Source: Clostridia bacterium (GTDB lineage Bacteria > Bacillota > Clostridia > Oscillospirales > CAG-272). Taken from it: a stretch of DNA of 51,096 bases. The DNA is taken from the NCBI GenBank assembly GCA_017522125.1, contig JAFXAC010000091.1:1-51096 (forward strand), in the 5' to 3' direction. Every line of letters starts with the position of its first letter. Within the stretch, counting starts at the first letter, position 1. Of this stretch, positions 27,415 through 39,447 are shown one piece after another. The notes beneath the pieces are model-generated. The model made no database searches. It saw only the letters and a list, made by a program, of their open reading frames with translations, and was not told where the DNA came from. The position numbers were made by a program, and so were the translations under genes.

Positions 27415-27484
27415 CAAAGCGTTAGGATTTGGTGAAAAATATTGCTTATCGGACGAAAAGCGCCCCTTGCATAATTTTAAGGTA

Positions 27485-27506
27485 GCTTTTTGCTTTCGCA
27501 AAAAGC
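27485..27506. repeat. Isolated hairpin
   Basis: GCTTTTTGC/GCAAAAAGC with loop TTTC, located between the leader promoter and the terminator at 27521. It resembles single units of the hairpin arrays. Confidence 0.5.
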
Positions 27507-27520
27507 GTTCTATAAAAAAC

Positions 27521-27556
27521 AAAAGCGGAAGAAACTCGCGTTTCTTCCGCTTTTTT
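27521..27556. terminator. Bidirectional terminator for the lipoprotein operon
   Basis: A 15-bp stem (27521-27535 with 27540-27554, loop TCGC) has A4 and T6 flanks. In the minus sense it comes after the lipoprotein stop and hairpin array 4. Confidence 0.9.
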
Positions 27557-27563
27557 CCTTAAC

Positions 27564-27667
27564 GTTTGCCGAAAGGCAAACACATCACTCGCCGTAGGCG
27601 AACATCACTGCGCCAACGGCGCAACATCATTACGGCGAAGCCGTACATCATTTGCGCCAGCGGCGCA
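27564..27667. repeat. Hairpin array 4
   Basis: This is the most regular array. Five perfect hairpins: 27564-27581 (GTTTGCC/GGCAAAC), 27589-27601 (TCGCC/GGCGA), 27609-27623 (TGCGCC/GGCGCA), 27631-27645 (TACGGC/GCCGTA) and 27653-27667 (TGCGCC/GGCGCA). Loops are GAAA, GTA, AAC, GAA and AGC. The linker is ACATCAC or ACATCAT, seven bases, at 27582, 27602, 27624 and 27645 (the last shares one base with the stem). In the minus sense the array lies between the lipoprotein stop (27673-27675) and the terminator. Confidence 0.88.
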
Positions 27668-27672
27668 TTTTT

Positions 27673-28116
27673 TTATTGCGCGGGCGGTGTTGAAACCTCC
27701 GCGGCGGCAAGGAGAGCGTCAAAGATATCCTTGTTGAAATCAACTATCTTATATCTGCCTTCTCTGCCCGAATTGACTATCGGATTGATATATATCTCGG
27801 ACACCTCGTCGTTGATGTAGAATACCTGATCCTCAATGGCTATCCTGTAGTACTGCCTTTGCTTGAACACGGTATCGGTGTCATCATCGTCGTCGAATTT
27901 TTCGTAGGTGCAGCCGTTAAGCATATCAATGAAAGCCGTTATCTGCGTCTGATCCTTGATGACGTATATTCCGCCGCCCTTTCTCACGTCGTTGATGGTG
28001 ATAAGATCGGTCTGGTCGATCGACGCAAAGGGGCGTCCGTTGGGATAGCACGCCGAAAGCAGAAGGGCGCAAAGCGCAAAGAGCGCGATAAGAGATATCT
28101 TTCGGGAACGAAGCAT
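27673..28116 (-). CDS. Hypothetical lipoprotein
   Basis: A 147-residue protein with a clear lipoprotein signal (MLRSRKISLIALFALCALLL, lipobox LSAC at about residue 23). The mature part has alternating beta-like segments (GGGIYVIKDQTQITAFIDML, YYRIAIEDQVFYINDEVSEI) and an acidic stretch DDDDDTD. No family is recognised. AAAAGGAG lies before the ATG. It follows the alcohol dehydrogenase gene by 27 bp on the same strand and is probably co-transcribed. Its stop is followed by hairpin array 4. Confidence 0.75.
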   Translation of the reverse strand: MLRSRKISLIALFALCALLLSACYPNGRPFASIDQTDLITINDVRKGGGIYVIKDQTQITAFIDMLNGCTYEKFDDDDDTDTVFKQRQYYRIAIEDQVFYINDEVSEIYINPIVNSGREGRYKIVDFNKDIFDALLAAAEVSTPPAQ

Positions 28117-39194: not shown

Positions 39195-39447
39195 TAATTT
39201 CAAAATCAAACGCAATGACGGAAAATGCGTAAGTGAAAAGCGTTTCAGAGAGCCGACGGCAGCTGTGAGTCGGTACGCGGACACGGTACGCTCTCATTCC
39301 CGAGTGGGACATCTGAAAAGGGTGTCACGGATGCCACCGTTACAGGGCAGGGAGCTGTTAGGCTCTTGTAAAAGAGGTCGCGCAAGCGGCAATCTGGGTG
39401 GTACCGCGGTTTTTATCGTCCCTGAAGCATGGCTTCGGGGGTTTTTT
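39195..39447 (+). promoter_or_regulatory. T-box leader (probably Leu)
   Basis: A tRNA-sensing leader. Stem I is closed by TTTCAGA (39243-39249) and TCTGAAA (39312-39318). It contains GAGAGCC and a small GC-rich hairpin as in the distal part of T-box Stem I. The diagnostic T-box sequence TGGGTGGTACCGCGG is at 39395-39409. The terminator CCCTGAAGC/GCTTCGGGG with a T tract is at 39420-39447. Uncharged cognate tRNA would bind and allow read-through. A CTC triplet followed by A (about 39292-39295) is a possible Leu specifier; the alignment is by eye and tentative. Confidence 0.93.

Follow-up and report, generated by a model that had tools for sequence, protein, structure and literature searches.

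Among the closest described counterparts of the hairpin array analysed here is Gut-1 (Rfam RF01706), an RNA family in which a constant 7-nt linker likewise lies between hairpins, with GTGAAAT/ATTTCAY in place of ATGATGT/ACATCAY. The passages on Gut-1 in its description present it as a likely noncoding RNA known only from human gut environmental sequence, and they mention no link to IVP, DNA or a mobile element (Weinberg et al. 2010, PMC2864571). IVP, or S23, is the 23S rRNA intervening-sequence protein family, which the arrays described below share with the intervening sequences (IVSs) of the 23S rRNA. The Coxiella IVS carries an S23/IVP ORF preceded by three tandem heptamers (GACAGAT), is bordered by complementary sequence and is seated in a hairpin; IVSs replaced tetraloops in the 23S rRNA, a location similar to that of the fold-back elements found here in terminator hairpin loops. 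However, this IVS lies in rRNA, whereas the array elements lie at tRNA, tmRNA and gene terminators and have hairpins between their heptamers. The same paper states that neither what IVSs do nor where they come from is clear (PMC4990558).

REP/REPIN and BIME sequences associated with RAYT likewise consist of palindromic, non-autonomous repeats whose evolution is coupled to that of a partner protein, but this partner is a Y1 transposase and not a four-helix bundle, and what is constant in the present arrays is the linker, not the palindrome. The promoters of the phage N4 virion RNA polymerase are small DNA hairpins whose stable-loop strand is recognised. Their likeness to the arrays is confined to the stable-loop hairpin: there is no sequence relation, and they are promoters, not mobile arrays. 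Finally, TAACTGA heptamer repeats form similar intergenic arrays in Beggiatoaceae and cyanobacteria, and their author suggested that the mobile element may be a protein that binds the repeats; no hairpins are described in the passages on these repeats, and the paper contains no IVP/S23 or intervening-sequence term (PMC4679880). Among open-licence PMC papers, nothing on IVP with heptamers or hairpins was found beyond the Coxiella and Beggiatoaceae papers, and none was found that joins Gut-1, hairpin arrays, heptamers and IVP. As a family of small bacterial mobile elements, IVP elements are barely described.

The hairpin array and its neighbours

The array occupies positions 27564-27667 of the window, by which we mean the whole 51,096-nucleotide stretch of DNA that was analysed. 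It is the window's densest 104 nt for hairpins with a stem of at least 5 bp and a loop of 3-4 nt. An earlier note on this DNA had described five perfect hairpins joined by a linker held at ACATCAC or ACATCAT, and both observations were reproduced: 2000 dinucleotide shuffles of the stretch gave only 0, 1 or 2 hairpins each, and the linkers begin at 27582, 27602, 27624 and 27645. The DNA fold of the array has a z score of -6.7, equalled by none of 200 shuffles. The features of the array and its surroundings are as follows.

27479..27506, minus strand: type A head hairpin, as found in the dispersed copies (GCTTTTTGC-GAAA-GCAAAAAGC-TACCTT), inverted relative to the array
27521..27554, no strand assigned: terminator-like hairpin, perfect 15-bp stem, T runs on both strands, downstream of the array as read from the gene at 27673-28116
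27564..27581, plus strand: hairpin 1, GTTTGCC-GAAA-GGCAAAC, 7-bp stem, GAAA loop
27577..27653, minus strand: sub-threshold match to Rfam RF01706 (Gut-1), 32.2 bits against a curated cut-off of 50 bits
27582..27588, plus strand: linker 1, 7-nt heptamer repeat ACATCAC
27589..27601, plus strand: hairpin 2, TCGCC-GTA-GGCGA, 5-bp stem, GTA loop
27602..27608, plus strand: linker 2, 7-nt ACATCAC
27609..27623, plus strand: hairpin 3, TGCGCC-AAC-GGCGCA, 6-bp stem, AAC loop
27624..27630, plus strand: linker 3, 7-nt ACATCAT
27631..27645, plus strand: hairpin 4, TACGGC-GAA-GCCGTA, 6-bp stem, GAA loop
27645..27651, plus strand: linker 4, 7-nt ACATCAT, its first A being also the last base of hairpin 4
27653..27667, plus strand: hairpin 5, TGCGCC-AGC-GGCGCA, 6-bp stem as in hairpin 3, AGC loop
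27673..28116, minus strand: 147-aa reading frame, no Pfam match, stop codon abutting the array

The description of the stems as mostly different or unrelated holds in general but is slightly overstated for the window, since hairpins 3 and 5 share TGCGCC/GGCGCA and are 93% identical. An 84-aa TTG reading frame at 27566-27820 on the plus strand crosses the array and is likely spurious.

That no named family follows this rule, as the note also suggested, proved incorrect, because the sister lineage with the GTGAAAT linker is the Rfam Gut-1 RNA. The window array has the Gut-1 layout of three hairpins split by a linker, with AUGAUGU/GUGAUGU instead of GUGAAAU, and is a sub-threshold relative of that family; two other loci, L478 and L043, reach the cut-off.

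In the direction of the gene at 27673-28116, the stop codon is followed by the array (as ATGATGT), the terminator hairpin and the inverted type A head, so that the array would fall in the 3' untranslated region of this gene. Such a position between stop codon and terminator, the minus-strand RNA fold (z = -4.1) and the coverage of one linker lineage by Gut-1 are all compatible with a structured RNA, the arrays acting as transcripts, either as small RNAs or as 3' UTRs that stabilise or terminate messages, as proposed for Gut-1. Nevertheless, judged from sequence comparison, the array is probably a non-autonomous copy of one end, or arm, of a mobile element that encodes an IVP/S23 four-helix-bundle protein. 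The window copy is a single arm without its inverted counterpart and has no IVP nearby, and would therefore be an orphan, non-autonomous or decayed. IVPs of the same linker clade are present elsewhere in the genome, on contigs C49 and C96. A search of 12 same-genus relatives for the orthologous site, whether empty or with a target-site duplication, found no match to the neighbouring gene. No rRNA match was found in the window, and the array is thus not located in a 23S rRNA helix. Elsewhere in the window, a T-box leader lies at 39206-39426 (RF00230, 98.4 bits).

A dispersed array family and its partner gene

The genome to which the window belongs (G000; 1.82 Mb in 99 contigs, the window being C89) contains 59 matches to a two-linker pattern at about 15 places, against none for the reversed control pattern. 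The note had proposed searching related genomes with such a pattern. This search recovered three-linker arrays with many different stems in 46 of 295 genomes of the order, with an almost empty reversed control, and the rule of a constant 7-nt linker between variable perfect hairpins is valid order-wide.

One recurrent form, type A, consists of the head GCTTTTTGC/GCAAAAAGC-TACCTT followed by the hairpins TTGCGCC, GGGC, TTGCC, TACGGC and TTGCGCC. In an alignment of ten copies, stems and linkers hardly vary, while nearly every copy has loops of its own; some stems have changed on both sides, e.g. GCGCC/GGCGC to GCGGC/GCCGC. Beyond type A, the commonest form, comprising most arrays, is a fold-back with ATGATGT linkers on one side and ACATCAY on the other. 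Contigs C1, C73, C76 and C77 of the own genome end inside or close to fold-back elements; the draft assembly therefore breaks there, and copy number is probably underestimated. At three loci (L036, L037 and L046), the right end of a type A array continues into ATTTCAC-linked hairpins, so that two linker lineages are joined in one array.

Because the copies in the own genome share the same ordered stems, they form a dispersed repeat family and do not point to de novo creation of palindromes. The note had offered compensatory selection or a palindrome-making copying process as explanations; the structural constraint is borne out, in that stems hold and loops vary, and the creation of new palindromes is not. 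The fold-back layout, the IVP gene and the linker code had escaped the note. A neutral origin by replication template switching, which would yield perfect palindromes without any protein partner, could account for the loop differences between copies and for one clear whole-loop inversion (the same end hairpin, with matching stems, carries the 6-nt loop GATAAA in L031 and TTTATC in L039). It is nonetheless disfavoured and very improbable, as the stems are conserved position by position among dispersed copies, the linker is constant and, as described below, loops are polar and the linker is inherited with IVP.

The gene beside many fold-back arrays encodes a member of the IVP/S23 family (PF05635, E = 6.6e-28; TIGR02436, four helix bundle). 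Many fold-backs are followed by a promoter and then by the IVP gene, and homology between loci ends at the IVP stop codon. Comparison of the loci shows that a full element has the order host tRNA or gene, terminator, ATGATGT arm with hairpins, inverted ACATCAY arm with hairpins, promoter and IVP gene. IVP was detected in 40 of the 46 array-bearing genomes and in 99 of the 249 others (Fisher p = 1.4e-9); the six array-bearing genomes without a detected IVP are drafts, and two of their array matches resemble coding repeats. In the own genome, at least five of the six IVPs have a fold-back hairpin array ahead of them whose linker is specific to the lineage, namely ACATCAT (C49 and C96), ATTTCAY (C31) and ATATCGA (two in C44). 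In L478, Gut-1, which corresponds to the ATTTCAY lineage, matches both fold-back arms upstream of IVP, and Gut-1 could be reinterpreted as belonging to a mobile DNA element.

REP/REPIN-like repeats spread by an IS200/IS605 or RAYT (Y1) transposase would equally be expected to consist of short palindromes that are dispersed, form inverted pairs and prefer hairpins and terminators. This explanation is disfavoured and hardly tenable, given that Y1_Tnp (PF01797) had no match in four array-bearing genomes (G000, G001, G034 and G038) and was rejected as array partner, and that the flank is ACATCAY and not a GTAG/CGTC tag.

Linker code and hairpin loops

A hairpin array lies upstream of 52 of the 101 IVPs sampled. 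The linker cores of these 52 hairpin-class IVPs include CATCA, CTTCA, TATCA, TTTCA, TATCG, CATCG and TTAGC, and the full linkers of lineages other than that of the window include ACTTCAY, ATATCAC, ATTTCAY and ATATCGA, as well as TTTAGC. Mapped on the IVP protein tree, the linker label requires 24 changes, whereas shuffled labels require 62.1 and none of 200 shuffles reaches so low a count; CATCA and CTTCA take two changes each. The tree is built from 121 columns and has many open forks, and near copies inflate the clustering, but its main clades are supported. These counts show linker and IVP lineage to be co-inherited.

Where an IVP lacks a hairpin array, repeats of period 7 flank the gene on either side, mostly in inverted orientation across it, and the lag-7 self-match of these tandem-class flanks is 0.44 and 0.50 against about 0.27. 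Hairpin-array and tandem-heptamer flanks are separated by only two changes on the tree, and the basal IVPs are flanked by inverted tandem heptamers, not by hairpin arrays. Since the linker follows the IVP tree and other IVPs have period-7 flanks, the linker, constant between hairpins, seems to be the IVP element's heptamer repeat, with the hairpins as spacers acquired in one derived clade. The IVP family would thereby be tied to a readable DNA code, linker or heptamer, that diverges with the protein and is open to a binding assay.

A linker that tracks IVP phylogeny, in arrays directly upstream of the IVP promoter, could also belong to operators by which IVP regulates its own promoter, orphan arrays marking other regulated genes and mobility being incidental. 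We regard this as improbable: in the tandem-heptamer class, inverted arrays flank the IVP gene on either side, orphan arrays lie 3' of genes or in terminators and not in promoters, and elements without IVP recur in several families.

For the analysis of loops and spacers, the pooled spacer set was replaced by arrays from fetched genomes; viral-contig pattern matches that had entered the first pooled set looked largely like chance matches in coding sequence and were dropped. Among 122 distinct hairpins with stems of at least 5 bp, read on the linker strand, 71 have GNA/GNNA loops and one has a TNC/TNNC loop (p = 2e-16 against control), compared with 87 and 89, respectively, among 937 control hairpins elsewhere in the same loci. 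This polarity is identical in every linker lineage. GNA and GNNA loops closed by G-C pairs form exceptionally stable DNA minihairpins (PMC4686876). Several imperfect hairpins, read by eye, have tandem GA/GA opposed on the same strand. RNA loops of the UNCG and GNRA types were considered and rejected, the TTC loops being triloops and out of register for UUCG.

These loops bear directly on the structured RNA explanation. Both fold-back arms keep their loop polarity relative to the linker despite lying on opposite strands, so that a single transcript could have the favourable loops in one arm at most, and position 3 is a pyrimidine in 19 of 35 GNNA loops, which fits the DNA GNNA rule (PMC4686876) and not RNA GNRA. 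Moreover, the linker code follows the IVP protein. Arrays do often come after tRNA terminators, a same-strand tRNA lying ahead of 33 of the 52 hairpin-class IVPs and of none of the 28 tandem-class IVPs (p = 2e-9), but the array then lies beyond an intact terminator. A role as transcript is thus unlikely, and the evidence favours folded single-stranded DNA as the form under selection, without amounting to proof.

Insertion sites and a candidate mechanism

Several kinds of site support mobility. An IVP-carrying element separates a stop codon from its terminator in genome G256 and is absent from ten same-genus orthologs. TGCGGATTTGTGAAGTAT flanks it at either end, but this sequence includes a linker and so may not represent a genuine target duplication. 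A search with the flanks of a tRNA-Gly element found no empty site in genus g78. Target duplications are clear only in the tandem class, where 14-23 bp direct repeats of tRNA-Leu 5' ends bracket three IVPs (L465, L471 and L463); in the hairpin class there is one case, doubtful. At L531, a hairpin-class IVP element with the TTTAGC linker abuts the 3' end of a tmRNA (Rfam RF00023 match at 292-640).

Elements without IVP provide further cases. A fold-back of about 327 bp with sharp ends and 79-94% identity occurs between unrelated flanks in genomes of several families, although contamination could explain part of this sharing, as the genomes are drafts. These fold-back relatives have the traits of MITE-like elements (multi-copy, non-coding, sharp ends, unrelated flanks), the copy number being that of type A. 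In two related fold-back subfamilies, the left and right flanks together make up a single hairpin in 5 of the 9 copies for which both flanks were read. These split hairpins are mostly terminator-like, with scores of 10-18 against at most 8 for swapped flanks, and inspection by eye added three terminator-loop cases, namely L109 and two contig pairs, L041/L040 and L404/L407. Besides these three, the loci recorded with a fold-back without IVP in a terminator-like hairpin loop are L077, L086, L163, L396 and L444. Sequence comparison thus shows one empty site and insertions into terminator loops.

We infer that movement is driven by IVP, against which counts the lack of a known catalytic domain in this protein; the only solved relative found, 2rld, gives no function. 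In the mechanism that we propose, the heptamer would be the recognition repeat of the IVP protein, and the hairpins would snap back whenever the linker strand becomes single, during replication or supercoiling. Hairpin sequence would therefore be free provided that folding is kept, and the folding would bring the heptamers into register. An IVP oligomer could then bind the series of heptamers in the two arms, and the element might be copied by host enzymes or by template switching at the fork to a new site, preferentially at terminators and tRNA/tmRNA ends. The IVPs of C49 and C96 could mobilise the window copy in trans.

More tentatively, and with the odds somewhat against it, these elements could form a novel class of mobile DNA that has no known recombinase, in which an S23/IVP oligomer reads a lineage-specific 7-nt code on single-stranded DNA with ultra-stable minihairpins as spacers and inserts the element at the loops of hairpins and at terminators. 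If true, this would also explain the entry of IVSs into 23S rRNA hairpins. IVP elements are moreover a possible source of the many tRNA-adjacent hairpin clusters and of the heptamer repeats around IVP genes in Clostridia. At two further GTDB loci, L190 and L099, tandem arrays lie after IVP genes, with heptamers in a Prevotellaceae MAG and octamer-like repeats in L190.
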